A DNA stretch of 33,193 bases from Coriobacteriia bacterium. GTDB taxonomy: Bacteria > Actinomycetota > Coriobacteriia > WRKU01 > WQUG01. The DNA lies in assembly GCA_009781115.1 (NCBI GenBank), contig WQYT01000015.1, positions 1-33,193 of the forward strand, in the 5' to 3' direction. This document shows positions 994 through 10,692 of the stretch, one piece after another; position 1 is the stretch's first letter, and each line of letters begins with the position of its first letter. Position numbers and translations under genes: made by a program. The notes beneath the pieces are model-generated. The model was not told the origin of the DNA. It did not search any database and worked only from the letters and a program-made list of their open reading frames with translations.

Positions 994-1035
994 AGCAACA
1001 TGCCACGCACATTAAGCCAGAGGAGGCCATCACCC

Positions 1036-2334
1036 ATGCTCAGCCGCAAAATAGACGCCCAGCTTCTCGCCTGGAAAACCCGGCTCGATCACAAGGCCCT
1101 AGTGGTAAAAGGCGCGCGGCAAGTGGGCAAAACCTTCAGCATCGATCACTTCGCGCGGCAAAATTACCGTTCCTACATCCCCATCAACTTCGAGGAGACC
1201 CCCTCGCTCAAAGCAATCTTTGAAGGCGACCTCGACGCCACAACGATCATCAAGCAGCTCACTCTGCGCATCCCCGGCGCGACGATCATCCCCGGCGGCC
1301 ATACGCTGCTGTTTCTCGACGAGATACAGAGTTGTCCCCAGGCGCGCACGGCTCTGAAATTCCTGGTTCAGGATGGTCGTCTTGATGTCATAGCATCCGG
1401 CTCGCTGCTCGGGATCAACTACGCGGAGGTCTCCTCGTTTCCTGTCGGCTACACCGATCAGCTTGAGATGCACTCGCTGGATTTCGAGGAGTTCTGCTGG
1501 GCGAGCGGGGTTTCGCACGCGGCGCTCACAGACCTGCTTGCGCACTATCAGCAACGTACCCCGATCCCTCAGGCAACGCACGATTATATGCTCCAGTTAT
1601 TCAAAGAGTATATTGTCATCGGAGGGATGCCCGCCGTTGTATCCGCCTTCACCGCACACCACGACTTCAACGAGGCGCTGCGGCTGCAAAAAGGGGTCGT
1701 CAATGACTACCTTGACGACATTGCAAAATATGCGAAGGACGCCGAGAAGGCCAAGGCGCGCGCGTGCTTTCGCTCGGTTCCGCGCCAGCTTGCCAAAGAC
1801 TACAAGAAGTTTCAGTACAGCGTAGTCGAGAAAAACGGGAGCTCCCGCAAGTTCGCCGGCAGCCTGATGTGGCTGCTGGACGCAGGCATCATCACGATCT
1901 GTCACAATCTTAAACGTCCGGAACTCCCCCTGGAGGGCAATGCCGATGAGGCGGCGTTCAAAGTCTACTTAAGTGACACCGGCCTTTTGGTGTCGATGCT
2001 TGAGGAAGGCTCTGCCGCTGACATCATTGACGGAAACCTCGGCATCTACAAAGGGGCAATTTACGAGAACATCATCGCCGATGTCTTTAACAAGGCCGGG
2101 CGCAAGCTCTACTACTTTGAGTATCGCCACCAGATCGAGATAGACTTCTTCATCCGCTACCGCGGCGCCGCAACTGCAGTTGAGGTCAAATCAGCGGAGA
2201 ACACCAAGTCGAAATCACTGCGCGCCATACTCGATAACTACCAGGTGACCCAGGCGATCCGGCTCTCAACCAAAAACATCGGAGAGAGCGGCCCAATTCT
2301 GAGCCTCCCTCTCTATCTGGCCCCCTTTATCTAA
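1036..2334 (+). CDS. AAA family ATPase with DUF4143-like C-terminal domain
   Basis: Walker A-like KGARQVGKT, Walker B LLFLDEIQ, GSLLG motif, C-terminal nuclease-like EIDFFIRYRGAATAVEVKS. Start moved from 1000 to ATG 1036 because of SD AGGAGG at 1021-1026. Confidence 0.85.
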   Translation: MLSRKIDAQLLAWKTRLDHKALVVKGARQVGKTFSIDHFARQNYRSYIPINFEETPSLKAIFEGDLDATTIIKQLTLRIPGATIIPGGHTLLFLDEIQSCPQARTALKFLVQDGRLDVIASGSLLGINYAEVSSFPVGYTDQLEMHSLDFEEFCWASGVSHAALTDLLAHYQQRTPIPQATHDYMLQLFKEYIVIGGMPAVVSAFTAHHDFNEALRLQKGVVNDYLDDIAKYAKDAEKAKARACFRSVPRQLAKDYKKFQYSVVEKNGSSRKFAGSLMWLLDAGIITICHNLKRPELPLEGNADEAAFKVYLSDTGLLVSMLEEGSAADIIDGNLGIYKGAIYENIIADVFNKAGRKLYYFEYRHQIEIDFFIRYRGAATAVEVKSAENTKSKSLRAILDNYQVTQAIRLSTKNIGESGPILSLPLYLAPFI

Positions 2335-2452
2335 CCCGCTCTCACGCCCTGTCCCTCACATCTCTGCCCTGTAACTTCGCGCCTACAAGAGCGAAGGGCT
2401 TTGGATCGTCGCGCAAAGTGTCGTGTCGCTTCTGGATGGCAGCAGTGTGCCG

Positions 2453-2481
2453 TTATCGTATATACTATAAGCACACGATAA
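2453..2481 (+). promoter_or_regulatory. Putative autoregulatory operator/promoter of TA module 1
   Basis: Inverted repeat TTATCGT (2453-2459) / ACGATAA (2475-2481) flanking TATACT (2461-2466), immediately upstream of SD AAGGAG and ATG 2492; nested AGTGTGC...GCACACT pairing as well. Confidence 0.55.
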
Positions 2482-2491
2482 GGAGCACACT

Positions 2492-2791
2492 ATGGTATTC
2501 ATGACAACGCGTGAATTGCGCACCAACACAAAAGAACTGTGGGAAACCCTGGATTCTCAGCAGGAGATCGTACTGACCAATAACGGTAAGCCCCGGGCGG
2601 TTGTGATCCCTACTGATCCCGAAGACCTGGAAGAGACGCTCCTCAGGATCCGCAGCGCTCGCGCAAAGGCGGCATGGTATTCCATCCGCGCGCAGTCCGA
2701 AGCAAATGGCACAGGCAACTTGAGTATGGACGAAATAGATGCGATCATCGCTGAGTCGCGTGCAGAAAGGCGCGCACAGCAGAGCGCCTGA
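2492..2791 (+). CDS. Type II antitoxin, Phd/YefM-like
   Basis: 99 aa: TTRELRTNTKELWETLDSQQEIVLTNNGKPRAVVIP is a typical Phd/YefM N-terminus; next to a PIN-domain ORF. Confidence 0.75.
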   Translation: MVFMTTRELRTNTKELWETLDSQQEIVLTNNGKPRAVVIPTDPEDLEETLLRIRSARAKAAWYSIRAQSEANGTGNLSMDEIDAIIAESRAERRAQQSA

Positions 2792-2792
2792 T

Positions 2793-3197
2793 ATGGGAGC
2801 ACCACGCCTGGTTGTTCTGGATACCAATGTTCTGGTATCAGGGAATATCACAAAGCATAATTCCCCTCCCACTGAACTGGTTGGGATGGTGCTTGATGGC
2901 TTATTGCGCCTTTGTTACGACACCCGCATGATGGCTGAGTACCGCGAGGTACTTTCAAGGCCACAGTTCAATTTTGATACTCGCGAGAAAGAGCTCCTGT
3001 TTGAAATGATCACAAGGTATGGCTTCGACGTTGATCCTCCTCGCTCCACTCTTGACTTTTCTGATGAATCAGATCGCCCGTTCTATGAAGTAGCAGAGCT
3101 CTGCCTTTGCCCGTTGGTAACAGGCAATAAAAAGCACTTTCCGCAGAGGGAGTGGATACTCAGCCCGGCGGAGTACCTTGCCGCGCTGTGGGAGTGA
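2793..3197 (+). CDS. PIN-domain toxin (putative toxin-antitoxin system toxin component, PIN family)
   Basis: MGAPRLVVLDTNVLVSG... DTNVLVSG N-terminal PIN motif and ...CLCPLVTGNKKHFP C-terminal motif. ATG 2793 abuts the antitoxin stop; track start 2739 lies inside the antitoxin. Confidence 0.8.
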   Translation: MGAPRLVVLDTNVLVSGNITKHNSPPTELVGMVLDGLLRLCYDTRMMAEYREVLSRPQFNFDTREKELLFEMITRYGFDVDPPRSTLDFSDESDRPFYEVAELCLCPLVTGNKKHFPQREWILSPAEYLAALWE

Positions 3198-3262
3198 GCT
3201 GCTACAAACTGTATCAGAGGAACAACTGTGACAGGGAGACTGTCTCCTTCCGGTACTGGGCA

Positions 3263-3278
3263 ATGAGCCCGGGCTCAT
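3263..3278. repeat. Perfect 16-bp palindrome ATGAGCCCGGGCTCAT between TA modules 1 and 2
   Basis: Direct reading; possible terminator core or protein site. Confidence 0.5.
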
Positions 3279-3336
3279 GCGTAGCGCGCGGGGACCCGGC
3301 GCGCCATCCTTCCTTTCTGGCGGAGGATTTTGACGG

Positions 3337-3365
3337 TTGACAGATCAGCGTATATGAAGTAATAT
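3337..3365 (+). promoter_or_regulatory. Promoter of TA module 2
   Basis: TTGACA (3337-3342), 17-bp spacer, TAATAT (3360-3365); SD AGAGGTGG upstream of ATG 3404. Confidence 0.65.
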
Positions 3366-3403
3366 ATTTATGTATTATCTTTAAGTATGATAAAAGAGGT
3401 GGC

Positions 3404-3691
3404 ATGGATAAGGTTTTTGTGGATGACAGGGTTCCACAGCGACATCCAAATATCTCAAAGAATGATGCAATGGTAGCGTGGAAGAATTGCATGAGGTCTC
3501 GGCCCAGGATCAACAAGAACCCCAGTGAGTGTCTGGCTATTGGAGTAGACGGGAAAGGCAGACTCTTGGAACTTGTTGCCCTGAGGGACACTGAGGGGGA
3601 CTGGTTGATTTATCATGCAATGACGCCGCCTGCGGAAAACGCGAAAAGAGAGCTTCAGTTTGACCGGAGGAAAAGCCATGAAAAACGATGA
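3404..3691 (+). CDS. Putative type II toxin, BrnT-like
   Basis: 95 aa, VPQRHPNISKNDAMVAWKNCM...YLxIGVDGKGRLLELVALRDTEGDWLIYHAMTPP; overlaps a downstream ribbon-helix-helix ORF, toxin-first order as in BrnTA. Confidence 0.55.
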   Translation: MDKVFVDDRVPQRHPNISKNDAMVAWKNCMRSRPRINKNPSECLAIGVDGKGRLLELVALRDTEGDWLIYHAMTPPAENAKRELQFDRRKSHEKR

Positions 3692-3953
3692 ATTGCATAA
3701 GAAGTTCGGCGTTACCGATGCACAGCTTGATGAACGGGCCGCTGAGTACGAGAGCGAGTCCTGGGAAGGGATGGAGTTCGGTAGAATAGTTCAGGGCCGA
3801 CCTAAGATTTGCGATGAGGAACTAAAGCCGTTGACCATCAAAGTGCCCGCCTCGCGCATTGCGGCTATACAAGAGTCTGCTGCCAGGCGCGGCGTCTCAC
3901 GTTCAGAGTTCGTACGTCAGGCGATCGACAACGAGCTTGCGACCGCCTCCTGA
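3678..3953 (+). CDS. Ribbon-helix-helix (CopG-like) antitoxin, BrnA-like partner
   Basis: C-terminal LTIKVPASRIAAIQESAARRGVSRSEFVRQAIDNEL is a canonical RHH motif; ATG 3678 preceded by GGAGGAAA; overlaps the upstream ORF by 14 nt. Confidence 0.65.
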   Translation: MKNDELHKKFGVTDAQLDERAAEYESESWEGMEFGRIVQGRPKICDEELKPLTIKVPASRIAAIQESAARRGVSRSEFVRQAIDNELATAS

Positions 3954-4027
3954 CTGTCTTTGCCCGCTCGTCTCTTCGCGAGTTAAGAAGTTAGTTCACT
4001 GTGAAAAGTATTGGTAGCCTCTGCCTG

Positions 4028-4096
4028 GTATACCATTTGCACCATCTTTAAGATACTGTTTGCACCCTGCCTGGTATACCATATTCCCTCTAGATG
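4028..4096. repeat. Three tandem degenerate 23-bp repeats
   Basis: Units at 4028, 4051 and 4074: GTATACCATTTGCACC... / AGATACTGTTTGCACC... / GTATACCATATTCCC...; includes a 16-bp exact direct repeat CTGCCTGGTATACCAT at 4021-4036 and 4067-4082. Confidence 0.7.
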
Positions 4097-4133
4097 CTAG
4101 TCGGAATCAATATTGCTCGTTAGCAACGAATAG

Positions 4134-4160
4134 AATTCATCCATTATCAATGGATGAATT
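4134..4160. repeat. Palindromic element, same family as the two palindromes inside the DUF1016 gene
   Basis: AATTCATCCATT-atc-AATGGATGAATT, perfect 12-bp arms, 3-nt centre. Confidence 0.8.
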
Positions 4161-4169
4161 AGAATGTAC

Positions 4170-4199
4170 TTGGTCAAGTTGGTCAAGTATGCTATGATG
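4170..4199 (+). promoter_or_regulatory. Promoter/operator of TA module 3
   Basis: TTGGTC (4170-4175), 18-bp spacer, TATGAT (4194-4199); exact tandem 9-mers TTGGTCAAG at 4170-4178 and 4179-4187 over the -35 region. Confidence 0.55.
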
Positions 4200-4227
4200 A
4201 GGTTATCTTGAAAGGATGGTTCCCTTT

Positions 4228-4485
4228 ATGTTGACCTTGCCATTGGCAGAGGCGAAGACTCAGTTTTCGCAGGTGATGAAAAAAGTGCGTACAGGTGAAT
4301 CAGTCACGGTGTCGTACGGGAAAAAGCGTGAACCGATCGCCGTCATCATCCCCTTTGATGACTGGTCGAAACTCAATCGCAAGCCGCGCAAGCTGGGAGT
4401 TCTGCAGGGCAGAGGGTCGGTGGAGTTTGCTGATGACTGGGCGATGACGGCTGAAGAACTGATCGGTGAAGAGCCGGTTGTCTAA
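4228..4485 (+). CDS. Type II antitoxin, Phd/YefM-like
   Basis: MLTLPLAEAKTQFSQVMKKVRTGESVTVSYGKKREPIAVIIPFDDW; SD AAAGG at 4211-4215 favours ATG 4228 over track start 4216. Confidence 0.8.
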   Translation: MLTLPLAEAKTQFSQVMKKVRTGESVTVSYGKKREPIAVIIPFDDWSKLNRKPRKLGVLQGRGSVEFADDWAMTAEELIGEEPVV

Positions 4486-4880
4486 TGGGCTATCTTCTGG
4501 ACACCCACACGATTCTCTGGATGCTGCTGGAGCCGGAGAAGCTCTCGGCGGAAACGCACAAAGTTTTGCTGAATAATGATGTTGATATTTATTATTCACC
4601 TATTAGCTTGTGGGAGATCGCTATCAAATACTCGATTGGAAAGCTTAATCTGCACGGGGTTACTCCTGATGATGTGATGGCGGCCCTTGATGAGGAGCCT
4701 TTTGACTGTCTTGATGTCTTTCCGGGCATCTGGGCGCAGAGTTATCAGCTGCCCCGGCTCCACAGCGACCCTTTCGATCATCTGCTCGTCTGGGAGGCGC
4801 TCACCAACGACCTGACCTTTTTGAGCGCAGACAAAAAACTCCGTGCGTACGAAAGCGAAGGCCTCCGGATCATTGCGTGA
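4485..4880 (+). CDS. vapC: VapC-family PIN-domain toxin
   Basis: MGYLLDTHTILWMLLEPEKLS... SPISLWEIAIKYSIGKL ... HSDPFDHLLVWEAL...FLSADKKLRAY; ATG overlaps the antitoxin stop (TAATG). Confidence 0.88.
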   Translation: MGYLLDTHTILWMLLEPEKLSAETHKVLLNNDVDIYYSPISLWEIAIKYSIGKLNLHGVTPDDVMAALDEEPFDCLDVFPGIWAQSYQLPRLHSDPFDHLLVWEALTNDLTFLSADKKLRAYESEGLRIIA

Positions 4881-5040
4881 GCCCTGCTGCAATGACTAAC
4901 CAACAACTCATTCCGGCCCGGCGCAATACTTCAAGCGGAGCATATGCCGGTATCTTTTCGTCAGGTAATGTTCGTTATAATAACAGCCAGTACACTAATG
5001 TTGTCTGCTCGCGATTGGGCCTTGCGGTAAAGGAGATGAT

Positions 5041-5337
5041 ATGAGTTTTTGTCAACAGTGTGGGACGCAGCTTCCTGAAGAGGCGGTGTGCTGTTCTGGT
5101 TGCGGTGCGAAAACAGGGCCAGAAGATACCGGGAGAAGTTTCGGTTTTGGCGCTCTGGGGTTTTTCTTTCCTCTTATTGGCATGCTCCTCTATTTCGTCT
5201 GGTATAGGAAGCGACCCGGCCCAGCAAAATCTGCGTTAATAGGGGCGATCATCGGTGTGGTTATCTGGCTTGTCCTCATTTTGCTTGGCACATTTAGCTC
5301 CTCTGGGTTGACCACTATAACCAGCGTCTCTGGATAA
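5041..5337 (+). CDS. Small zinc-ribbon membrane protein
   Basis: MSFCQQCGTQLPEEAVCCSGCGAK (CxxC...CxxC) followed by two hydrophobic helices. Confidence 0.7.
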   Translation: MSFCQQCGTQLPEEAVCCSGCGAKTGPEDTGRSFGFGALGFFFPLIGMLLYFVWYRKRPGPAKSALIGAIIGVVIWLVLILLGTFSSSGLTTITSVSG

Positions 5338-5386
5338 CGCGCTAAGCTCACGCGAAGAATTCCGAGCTGGCGACTATAAGCCCTGC

Positions 5387-5557
5387 TTAGCAGCTGCGCA
5401 GCGTGTGATAGAACCCGGCGGGGGACAGGACGACGGAGGGCTCATTGGGAAAGTGCTTCAAGTTGCCGGTGACCAGCGGGCAGAGGCAGAGGTGCGCCAC
5501 TTCCAGAAAGGGCAGATTATCCGCATCGGGAAGCGTGATATTAAGCTCAACCAGAAA
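5387..5557 (-). pseudogene. Degraded PIN-domain toxin (C-terminal remnant)
   Basis: Minus-strand reading FLVELNITLPDADNLPFLEVAHLCLCPLVTGNLKHFPNEPSVVLSPAGFYHTLRSC* matches the C-terminus of the toxin at 2793-3197 (DESDRPFYEVAELCLCPLVTGNKKHFPQREWILSPAEYLAALWE); in-frame stop upstream and no start codon. Confidence 0.8.
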
Positions 5558-5708
5558 TCAGTAAAAAAACGCACGTCTGTCCGTACTCTCTGTTATACTG
5601 GAAATCAGCGACATTCCCATCAGGTCACCGCAGCTCAGCGCCCTGTTTCGTCACTCGCTGGCGGAAAGTGTCCTTGTTATTTCACCCGATGAACCTAAGG
5701 AGGACCCC

Positions 5709-6884
5709 ATGAGCGAGAAGATCGAAACCTACCGGGATGCTGTTGTAAGAATCAAGAACGCGGTGCTGCAAAGCAGGTACCGGGCAGCAAGCGCCGCAAA
5801 TGCAGAGCAGCTGAACTTGTATTTCAGCGTTGGCGGATACATTTCTGTCAATACACGTTCTGGAAAATGGGGAAGTGGTGCCATTGAGGCCATATCGCAA
5901 CAACTCCAGACGGAACTGCCGGGGCTACGCGGGTTTTCGCCGACGAGCATGAAAAGCATGAGGTTGTTTTATGAGGAGTGGAGTGACGTAATTCGTCCGT
6001 TGGCAACGGACGAATTACCGCTTGGAACAAATCGGCAGTTGCTAACTGCCGATTTAGAAAGCGCAAATGGTCCAACCGGGCCTGCTATTGCAAACGCAGT
6101 TGAGTCAGAGGACTTCGCAGCATTTCTGCGGGTGGGATTTACTCATCACCGTCAGATTATCGCAAAGTGCAAAGACCTCGATGAGCGCTGGTACTACATC
6201 AAGCGTTGTGCCGCTGAGTTCTGGTCGGTCGAGGCGCTCAAGTCTCATATGCGCGCAAGGGATTATCAGCACAGCGGCGGCCTGCCAAACAACTTCACTC
6301 TGACGCTGCCTGATGAGCACACTGCGGCAAGGGCGGTGCGTTCATTTAAGGATGAGTATCTGCTGGACTTCATCAACATTGAGGATGAAACTGATCCGGA
6401 GCTTATCGACGAACGTGTTGTAAGTCATGAAATCGTACGCAATATCACGAAGTTCATCATGAGCATGGGCCGAGGCTTTACTTTTGTCGGTGAGAATCAT
6501 CGAGTGATTTTTGATGAGCAGGAATACTTCATTGACATCTTGCTGTACAGTCGAGACCTGCGTTGTCTGGTCGCGTTGGAGCTTAAGAGTGGCGGCTTCA
6601 AACCTTCCTATCTCGGGCAACTTTCGTTCTATCTTTCTGCTTTGGACGAGCTGGAGAAGATGCCGGATGAGAACGGCTCGATTGGACTCTTGCTCTGCAA
6701 GAAGGCCAGCAAATCGACCGTGGAGTTTGCTGTGCGGGACTATAACAAGCCGATGGGTGTTGCCGTTTATAAGGCTGCCGAGGATGTCCCGGAGCAATAT
6801 CAATCCTTGAAACCCCTTATCGACGGCGTGCAGGGTATTCTGTCTGAGGAGAACGAGGTTGATAGTGCAGCACCCTCGCAGTGA
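5709..6884 (+). CDS. PD-(D/E)XK nuclease family protein, YhcG/DUF1016-like
   Basis: N-terminal helical domain (AVLQSRYRAASAANAEQLNLYFSVGGYIS...WGSGAIEAISQQLQTELPGLRGFSPTSMKSMRLFYEEW) and C-terminal nuclease-like domain (FVGENHRVIFDEQEYFIDILLYSRDLRCLVALELKSGGFKPSYLGQLSFYLSALDE). Confidence 0.9.
   Translation: MSEKIETYRDAVVRIKNAVLQSRYRAASAANAEQLNLYFSVGGYISVNTRSGKWGSGAIEAISQQLQTELPGLRGFSPTSMKSMRLFYEEWSDVIRPLATDELPLGTNRQLLTADLESANGPTGPAIANAVESEDFAAFLRVGFTHHRQIIAKCKDLDERWYYIKRCAAEFWSVEALKSHMRARDYQHSGGLPNNFTLTLPDEHTAARAVRSFKDEYLLDFINIEDETDPELIDERVVSHEIVRNITKFIMSMGRGFTFVGENHRVIFDEQEYFIDILLYSRDLRCLVALELKSGGFKPSYLGQLSFYLSALDELEKMPDENGSIGLLLCKKASKSTVEFAVRDYNKPMGVAVYKAAEDVPEQYQSLKPLIDGVQGILSEENEVDSAAPSQ
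5988..6018. repeat. Intragenic palindrome 1 in the DUF1016 CDS
   Basis: GTAATTCGTCCGTT-ggc-AACGGACGAATTAC, perfect 14-bp arms; encodes VIRPLATDELP. Confidence 0.92.
6029..6055. repeat. Intragenic palindrome 2 in the DUF1016 CDS
   Basis: AAATCGGCAGTT-gct-AACTGCCGATTT, perfect 12-bp arms; encodes NRQLLTADL, in the same frame and 39 bp after palindrome 1. Confidence 0.92.
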
Positions 6885-9037: not shown

Positions 9038-10692
9038 AACGTGTTTCTTTGATAGCGCTTGCCGTGATTCTGGTTGTAGCGCTGGTTGGTTGCGCGGGGA
9101 CCTCAGAGGACAATCTGACGCAAAAACAAGCGCAGGAAAAACTTGACGCGCTGGTCAAAAGCAAGGTCAAGACCAAAACGGTCAGTCACCAGCCCGATAA
9201 CAGTTGGGTCGGCTCAAGCGGCTCGATCGATGAGCTGCCAGACATCAACCAAAAGTATCCCTTAAGCGTTAAGGGCACGAGCAGTAACAACATCGAGATA
9301 TTTTCTTCGACCGAGAAATCCAGTGCGGACGGCAGCGGCTGGCTTGACATCGAGGCAAAGGCGTTTAACAAGGCCAACAGCGACCGGTCCGTGTCGGTCC
9401 GCCCGATCGCATCCGGCTCAGCCCTGGGCTACATTACCGGCGGCAAATATGTACCCGGCGCCTACAGCCCCGCCAATGAGCTTTGGGCCGCCATGCTCCA
9501 ATCAAAAGGCGTGACTCTTGACACCATCTCGCAGAAGCTGACCGGCAATGAGGCCGGCATCCTCATGAAGAAGAGCGTCTATCAAACCTACGTCAAAAAG
9601 TACGGGCAGCCGGTCACGATCGACAAGGTGGTCAAGGCCGTCCTGGCCGGCGACTTAAAGCTGGCCCACACCGACCCCAACGTCAGCAGCACGGGGCTTA
9701 ACATCATGACCCAGGAGCTGCGCGCCTTTGACCCCGCCAACCCGTTCAGCGAGAAGGCGCAGACCCAAATGCAGCAGTTCGCCGACAAGGTCCCGCCGGT
9801 AAGCCCCACCACGGCAGAGATGGTCCAGGTGGCGAGCAAGGGCCTGGCAGACGCGATCATCACCGAGTATCAGGCCTGGAAGTCTGACCCCTCCCTGAAA
9901 GACTGGGTCTTTACGCCCTGTGGCGTCCTGCACAACAGCCCACTCTACGCTTTTGACAAAGCAACCCCCGAACAAAAACAAACCCTGAAAGCATTTGCGG
10001 ATTTCTGCACAACCAGCGCCGCCCAGCGGCAGGCCACCAGTCTTGGCTTTAACCCCACAGACGGCTACGCCGGGGTCAAAAACGAGTATACCGGCGCGGA
10101 GCTCTATACCGCGCTTGACTTCTGGAAGCAGAACAAGGATGCGGGCAAACCGGTCCTGTCGGTCTTTGTGATCGATCGCAGCGGCAGCATGGAGGGCGAG
10201 CCGCTCAATCAGCTCAAGGCCTCCCTGCTCAACGGCGCAAACTACATCAACGAGAACTACTATGTAGGGCTTGTCAGCTTTAGTTCATCGGGCGATATCA
10301 CCGTTGACCTGCCCATCGATAAGTTCACGGCAGAGCAGCATTCCGTATTCTGCGGCGCGGTGGGCGACCTGCAGGCGCGCGGCAATACCGCCACAAACAG
10401 CGCGCTGGTGGCGGCCATGAATCTGCTGGTAAAAAAGCAGTCAGAGCTGGGTCTCTCTGACGCCAAACTCAGGGTTTTCCTGTTAAGTGACGGGCAGCAA
10501 AATGAAGGCCTGAGCATGAGCCAGATCAAAGGAATCGTCAGCGGCCTGAAGATCCCCATCTATACGATTGGCTACAACAACGACATCGACACACTCAAAG
10601 AGCTGTCTTCGCTTAACGAGGCCTACTGCGTAAACGCTGACAGCAGCGACGTGGTCATGAACCTCAAGCAGCTTTTTACGGCGCAGCTGTAA
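9034..10692 (+). CDS. VWA-domain lipoprotein with N-terminal solute-binding-like region
   Basis: Lipobox VVALVGCAG; MIDAS LSVFVIDRSGSMEGEPLNQL...GNTATNSAL...LLSDGQQNEG. Confidence 0.82.
   Translation: MKRVSLIALAVILVVALVGCAGTSEDNLTQKQAQEKLDALVKSKVKTKTVSHQPDNSWVGSSGSIDELPDINQKYPLSVKGTSSNNIEIFSSTEKSSADGSGWLDIEAKAFNKANSDRSVSVRPIASGSALGYITGGKYVPGAYSPANELWAAMLQSKGVTLDTISQKLTGNEAGILMKKSVYQTYVKKYGQPVTIDKVVKAVLAGDLKLAHTDPNVSSTGLNIMTQELRAFDPANPFSEKAQTQMQQFADKVPPVSPTTAEMVQVASKGLADAIITEYQAWKSDPSLKDWVFTPCGVLHNSPLYAFDKATPEQKQTLKAFADFCTTSAAQRQATSLGFNPTDGYAGVKNEYTGAELYTALDFWKQNKDAGKPVLSVFVIDRSGSMEGEPLNQLKASLLNGANYINENYYVGLVSFSSSGDITVDLPIDKFTAEQHSVFCGAVGDLQARGNTATNSALVAAMNLLVKKQSELGLSDAKLRVFLLSDGQQNEGLSMSQIKGIVSGLKIPIYTIGYNNDIDTLKELSSLNEAYCVNADSSDVVMNLKQLFTAQL

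Follow-up and report, generated by a model that had tools for sequence, protein, structure and literature searches.

The window, i.e. the whole 33,193-nt stretch analysed here (contig WQYT01000015.1 of a Coriobacteriia draft genome, assembly GCA_009781115.1), carries an accessory cluster after gyrA (1000-6884) that looks like a defence/toxin-antitoxin island. It comprises an ATPase gene (DUF4143, 1000-2334) that corresponds to the PADLOC candidate PDC-S01, two Phd/PIN pairs, an RHH/BrnT-like pair (3404-3953) and a DUF1016/YhcG gene (PDC-S02). The features relevant for the following analysis are:

4134-4160, no strand: palindrome AATTCATCCATT-atc-AATGGATGAATT, candidate outlying copy of the DUF1016 site, located by pattern searches of window and genome
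4171-4198, plus strand: promoter-like element TGGTCA-16-TATGAT, directly downstream of the palindrome and ahead of phd
4216-4485, plus strand: Phd/YefM-type antitoxin gene, downstream of the palindrome
4485-4880, plus strand: PIN-domain (VapC-like) toxin gene
5709-6884, plus strand: DUF1016/YhcG gene with DUF1016_N (PF17761) and the YhcG PD-(D/E)XK nuclease domain (PF06250), assigned by profile search
5988-6018, no strand: in-gene palindrome 1, GTAATTCGTCCGTTG-g-CAACGGACGAATTAC, the predicted primary site, in the variable segment of DUF1016_N
6029-6055, no strand: in-gene palindrome 2, AAATCGGCAGTT-gct-AACTGCCGATTT, a weaker relative of palindrome 1

The palindrome at 4134-4160 consists of two perfect 12-bp arms around a 3-nt centre. 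It is 27 bp long, bears AATT at both ends and has an odd centre, which is the architecture of the DUF1016 palindromes described below. An earlier note, made from the sequence alone, had given its position and arms correctly and had placed it between the BrnT-like pair and the phd-PIN pair (4216-4880), which is the case. The gap between the palindrome and the promoter-like element of phd-PIN is 11 bp; matches of the TGGTCA-16-TATGAT type in this region show no excess over shuffles. The DUF1016 gene starts 1.55 kb past the palindrome. When 4134-4160 is aligned to the 27-bp stretch 5990-6016 inside this gene, 2 of the 12 arm positions differ. Both changes are G to A, at distances 4 and 8 from the dyad, and both are compensated on the opposite arm so that the symmetry is kept. 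Alignment thus reproduces the two compensated stem differences described earlier, and the separation then put at ~1.8 kb amounts to 1,856 bp from dyad to dyad. The 3-nt centre said to be common to both palindromes applies to the aligned part; palindrome 1 as a whole has 15-bp arms and a 1-nt centre (5988-6018). Similarly, of the two intragenic copies that had been proposed, 5988-6018 stands, whereas 6029-6055 is more remote, with 3 of 12 arm positions deviating from palindrome 1.

To search for related sites, the pattern ATTCRTCCRTTNNNAAYGGAYGAAT was used with up to 3 mismatches, with 100 dinucleotide shuffles as the control for the window and the reversed pattern as the control for the genome. 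Two matches are found in the window and none across the 100 shuffles; 4134-4160 is a genuine, perfect palindrome that chance does not explain. In the draft genome (1,975,242 bases, 128 contigs, 87.5% complete), 4134-4160 and in-gene palindrome 1 are again the only matches, the reversed pattern has none across the 1.98 Mb, and a second pattern with a looser core retrieves the same two sites only. Since its sole relative in the 1.98-Mb genome is the in-gene palindrome of the DUF1016 gene, 4134-4160 is not a dispersed repeat.

The protein encoded at 5709-6884 matches DUF1016_N with 91.7 bits (cut-off 32.8), followed by YhcG_C with 156.6 bits (cut-off 32.5), and has the PD-(D/E)XK catalytic residues, namely D at profile column 227 and E-L-K at columns 242-244. 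At least 99% of the family's genes retain the catalytic residues E186, D227 and K244. In fold searches, the C-terminal part matches PD-(D/E)XK structures, such as EndoMS, Hjc, R2 and XisH, with moderate scores; among the matches listed, all concern the nuclease part and none the N-terminal domain, which has no bearing on fold novelty. A sequence search of the PDB with the family profile gave no match. The family is also known as COG4804 and, in PADLOC, as the phage-defence candidate PDC-S02. The nuclease domain of YhcG had previously been assigned to PD-(D/E)XK, while its N-terminal domain and its target were left unknown (PMC1189080). Of 296 genomes from the class to which the window belongs, 109 have a YhcG_C match, and yhcG is present in most E. 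coli genomes. Four genomes have 10 to 20 DUF1016 matches each, among them that of the archaeon Bathycorpusculum with 20.

The host genome contains two more DUF1016 genes, on contigs C20 and C40, with other in-gene palindromes: L003:1635-1661 (AATTGTTGTGAC-gct), which is located at the column-57 position, and L004:224-250 (AATTGCGAACGCA-c arms). The palindromes of the host's DUF1016 genes are apparently orthogonal sites within one cell. Contig C40 also carries perfect inverted repeats with 69- and 31-bp arms and the motif GACAGGGGGACGG (L136:5187-5329 and 9269-9334).

DUF1016 genes from the same class contain perfect palindromes of differing sequence at the same gene position. A scan of genome contigs yielded 80 loci from many phyla, including archaea, and further genomes extended the set to 364 genes. 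For 301 of them, 50 codon shuffles each were generated, in which protein and codon usage were kept. In 165 of the 301 genes the palindrome is longer than in all 50 synonymous shuffles, with about 6 such genes expected. The palindromes are typically ~27 bp long, and nearly all of those with arms of ≥10 have their centre at profile column 95 or a few columns away at most, i.e. 5-6 residues ahead of a W-x-H motif. A small second class of eight palindromes has its dyad at column 57. In four loci and some others, two in-gene palindromes with a near-equal half-site occur exactly 108 bp apart, at columns 57 and 95. Relatives translate one and the same DNA palindrome in two different frames (CNSCCT and VQQLAAQ), so the constraint is not on the peptide. 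A protein-level cause of the in-gene palindrome is ruled out by the synonymous shuffles together with these two reading frames.

The outer AATT (positions 10-13 from the dyad) is conserved with more than 1 bit per position. The core positions 3-9 are variable, with 119 distinct 7-mers among 238 palindromes, every one of them self-complementary. The best dyad in the variable segment pairs at 10 of 10 positions in 152 genes, at 9 of 10 in 102 and at 8 of 10 in 61.

The variable core was compared with the residues of the encoded protein. Columns 91-98 were excluded because the palindrome itself encodes them. The strongest links between a protein column and a half-site base are 131 with base 3, 74 with base 7, 102 with base 3, 78 with bases 5 and 6, and 77 with base 9. 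In a sister-pair test (111 phylogenetically independent pairs, 2,995 tests), these links are recovered with p=2.6e-13 for column 74 and base 7, 1.7e-10 for 102 and base 3, 1.9e-9 for 131 and base 3, 2.6e-8 for 77 and base 9, and 1.4e-7 for 78 and base 6. The pairings make chemical sense: R74 is accompanied by G7 in 43.5 of 45 genes by weight and R132 by C2 in 44.7 of 44.7, and further pairings are R or K131 with C3 and R78 with G6. When clusters at 50% identity are left out, residues predict bases 2-7 above baseline (83% vs. 16% for base 3), figures that are flattered because the predictor columns were picked on the full data set; the sister-pair test is independent of that choice. The same prediction fails for bases 8-9, and entropy-matched columns elsewhere yield on average no prediction above baseline. 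Two AlphaFold models of moderate confidence (pTM 0.57 and 0.52) place the covarying residues at the N-terminal ends of three helices. The corresponding codons in the window are:

5943-5957, plus strand: codons of T79, K82 and S83 (profile columns 74, 77 and 78), at the N-terminal end of a predicted helix; they co-vary with half-site bases 5-9
6141-6143, plus strand: codon of T145 (column 102), which co-varies with base 3
6228-6233, plus strand: codons of V174 and E175 (columns 131 and 132), at the start of a further predicted helix; they co-vary with bases 3 and 2

The candidate specificity residues of the window protein are T74, K77, S78, T102, R105, V131, E132 and A133. Bases T2, T3, C6 and T7 are present in both palindrome 1 and 4134-4160 and fit E132, V131/T102, S78 and T74, respectively. 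Bases 4 and 5 of the window sites are off the prediction, with C4 and A5 predicted and G or A and C, respectively, observed. The summed predictor score of 4134-4160 is unexceptional and matched by 9% of the family palindromes. The nearest relatives (L212 and L208, 54% identity) share T74, K77, V131 and E132, and their sites are of the ATTCGTCA type. Palindrome 2 has G as base 7, the usual partner of R74, whereas the window protein has T74; it is possibly the remnant of a former specificity.

A natural exchange of such residues is found in E. coli, where the variable insert of K-12 yhcG carries three palindromes. The yhcG allele of strain WP3-S18-ESBL-09 is nearly identical to that of K-12 up to a block in which GFSAKNLRQM is replaced by GFSTRNLWQF. 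The palindrome adjacent to the swapped block changes from AATTCGCCAGACA to AATTGTGCAGACA arms, where AATTCGCCAGACA is the intact form of other strains and that of K-12 is damaged. Helix and palindrome have thus been exchanged as one block, and the pairings K74/C7 and R74/G7 match those of the family at large. The change from R77 to W77 together with C9 to G9 departs from what is usual in the family. In the swapped allele, the second palindrome has retained C7, and G7 is found in the later palindromes of the K-12 type; these may be old sites that were left behind. In close pairs across the family, differences in columns 50-115 are several times as frequent as in the nuclease domain. At the gltD-nanQ locus, where yhcG resides, the gene is often broken: a truncation at nt 406, within the third palindrome, has a transposase gene beside it, an IS2 insertion is found, IS1 lies beside a truncated yhcG, and ATCC 43894 has an in-frame 78-bp deletion of palindromes 2-3.

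Further copies of the palindromes were searched for in the DUF1016 loci. A second copy of a gene's own palindrome is present in the locus of 31 of 200 genes, as opposed to 4-6 with swapped palindromes; many of these are second in-gene copies. Among the out-of-gene palindromes, the 8-base core is identical in 6 of the 22 that lie between -350 and +60 relative to the gene, and in none of the 120 at greater distance. Four of the six are located upstream of the start and two just past the stop. At 1.55 kb from the gene start, 4134-4160 is more distant than most extra copies, and a few percent of the unrelated palindromes far from the gene likewise show two core mismatches.

Taken together, DUF1016 is probably a sequence-specific DNA-binding nuclease, with 5988-6018 as its in-gene site and 4134-4160 as an outlying copy upstream of phd-PIN (estimated probability about 0.72, on sequence comparisons). 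A tie between the palindromes and the DUF1016 protein, as the earlier note had suggested, is borne out: in many phyla a palindrome is fixed within the gene and selected at the DNA level, it co-varies with residues of the protein, it was swapped along with them in E. coli, and extra copies recur at the gene ends. From these patterns we infer physical binding, in which DUF1016_N, most simply as a symmetric dimer, would read a ~27-bp dyad of the form AATT-N7-9-centre-N7-9-AATT. The primary site would lie within the nuclease's own gene, near the codons for the reading helix ends, and site and specificity would therefore move together in recombination. As to the effect of binding, the most likely role of the sites would be that of operators limiting DUF1016's own expression, with those in the gene acting as a road-block and those upstream mediating repression. 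Binding at 4134 would, in addition, involve the phd-PIN promoter next to it. The location of copies near start codons and within the gene is in line with operators, which is why a regulatory role is favoured. Two points count against it, namely the copies just past stop codons, which are odd for operators, and the conserved nuclease site, which autoregulation does not explain. Since 4134-4160 lies 11 bp before the promoter-like element, both control of the phd-PIN module by DUF1016 and the marking of a unit border are possible.

The main alternative is that the palindromes are recombination or insertion junctions. The predicted DUF1016 nuclease would act at the dyad, whereby the gene or island is gained or lost or its specificity block exchanged, and 4134-4160 would be the left border of a DUF1016 and phd-PIN island. 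We regard this as possible, albeit tentatively, and it may coexist with operators. E. coli Nissle lacks yhcG and has a single palindrome between gltD and nanQ, whereas in K-12 one palindrome follows gltD and another lies 15 bp past yhcG. The Nissle junction combines the left flank of one K-12 palindrome with the right flank of the other, i.e. the empty site equals the outer flanks of the two palindromes around the yhcG segment. Ordinary recombination between 27-bp repeats, however, explains this empty site equally well. In a BLAST search of E. coli, the palindrome was found in 5,082 genomes and yhcG in 4,417, so at least 665 genomes have the palindrome with no detected yhcG. Against junctions, the left palindrome is missing in many yhcG-bearing E. 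coli strains. Junctions are also suggested by the extra copies upstream of the start and just past the stop, by the several-fold higher divergence of the segment around the palindrome in close pairs, by the deletions and IS insertions that hit the palindrome array in E. coli, and by a nuclease fold near those of Holliday resolvase, R2 and XisH. For the window locus itself, a genome of the same genus (G008) gives no empty site; it shares the window sequence from 7136 on only. Recombination agrees with the copies behind stop codons, the empty site in E. coli and the swapped blocks; it may hold alongside regulation. A conceivable, rather speculative extension is that DUF1016 genes are self-addressed, specificity-switching elements, in which the site beside the reading codons would serve both control and DNA exchange (gain, loss and block swap). 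The palindrome at 4134-4160 would then be the outer address of a unit that includes the toxin-antitoxin module.

Alternatively, 4134-4160 could be the operator of the adjacent phd-PIN module with no tie to DUF1016, its likeness to palindrome 1 being due to coincidence or convergence. Phd-type antitoxins commonly bind palindromes near their promoters, and the position of 4134-4160 upstream of the promoter-like element is compatible with this. We nevertheless consider it unlikely, as 10 of 12 arm positions match the in-gene palindrome with the differences compensated, the AATT architecture is that of the DUF1016 family, and the genome has no other such site. Moreover, a tandem 9-bp direct repeat (TTGGTCAAG-TTGGTCAAG, 4170-4187), which lies between palindrome and phd and overlaps the promoter-like element, offers an alternative Phd operator; it is a likely, putative operator of the Phd-PIN module.

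The earlier note had proposed a dispersed palindromic family, which would be comparable to mobile REP-like elements. The sites are indeed palindromic, intergenic as well as intragenic copies exist, and a few unlinked copies are known from other genomes. One of these, an intergenic copy in Hymenobacter artigasi (L454, around 4623-4667), is a perfect palindrome of ~45 bp (CAGGAGGTTAATTGTGCAACA...). The genome-wide search suggested in that note, however, returned two matches in all, with a single out-of-gene copy in 1.98 Mb. A count in 41 other genomes gave 0-3 occurrences each of the most frequent site version (TTGTGCA-N9-TGCACAA), mostly within DUF1016 genes, with two control matches in total. 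The in-gene copy moreover occupies a fixed codon position, which is not expected from insertion. A comparison by eye of the neighbourhoods of six unlinked copies found no shared gene type. Dispersal, for which the note had named a lack of other genomic copies as the refuting outcome, is thus largely refuted for this genome and very improbable. An RNA hairpin element (terminator, mRNA stability element or riboregulator) is hardly credible: the palindromes could fold and there is a weak terminator-like match on the minus strand (4160-4134), but the mismatches of imperfect dyads (60 A.C vs. 24 G.T) show no G-U excess, the reverse of the pattern that an RNA stem would permit and the ground on which this reading is rejected, centres of 0-1 nt are common, and the covariation involves protein residues beyond arm-to-arm pairing.

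DUF1016/YhcG is a very widespread predicted nuclease, so far a phage-defence candidate without an assigned target. The present data point to a concrete predicted DNA target for each genome, readable from DUF1016's own gene, and to a residue-to-base code that is open to single-substitution tests, for which the E. coli allele swap is a natural experiment. A recognition site beside the codons of the recognition helix would keep site and reader linked through recombination. In the open literature, i.e. outside subscription journals, no link of DUF1016 with palindromes or with an in-gene recognition palindrome was found. Within that scope, the in-gene site system of DUF1016 would be new; 4134-4160 is a single member of this system. 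We know of no described precedent for a recognition site encoded beside the recognition helix.

Several known systems share single traits with it. REP/RAYT systems and CGTC-tagged repeats likewise involve short palindromes in inter- and intragenic positions, and the arms of palindrome 1 contain CGTC. REPs are multi-copy and have an unpaired terminal tag, in the CGTC type with stems of 8-9 bp (PMC3733652). In contrast, the DUF1016 site is present in two copies in 1.98 Mb and is bound to one codon position of one gene family, whereas REPs have no fixed gene position. An unpaired GTAG or CGTC end is absent as well: CGTC is located inside the 12-15 bp stem of palindrome 1, and 4134-4160 has CATC there. 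Rickettsia palindromic elements (PMC4316617) and PARCELs (PMC2996958) are similar in that palindromes are translated in frame. They are inserted in many unrelated genes or form tandem repeats (PMC4316617; PMC2996958). The DUF1016 palindromes, in contrast, are found at one profile position of one family and are matched to the predicted DNA-reading residues of the same protein. The C proteins of restriction-modification systems and HTH-bearing methyltransferases belong to DNA-acting systems that limit their own expression via a dyad operator in the promoter. The proposed role of the DUF1016 sites is analogous, i.e. a DNA-acting enzyme would limit its own expression through a dyad operator, but the primary DUF1016 site is in the coding sequence beside the recognition codons instead of in a promoter. 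A homing endonuclease has a long, nearly unique target at its own locus, which is interrupted by its gene, so that occupied and empty alleles exist. DUF1016 resembles this class in its long, near-unique predicted target tied to its own locus and in its occupied and empty alleles; it differs in that the palindromes stay intact in occupied alleles of E. coli, both within and behind yhcG, and that the empty site likewise contains one.
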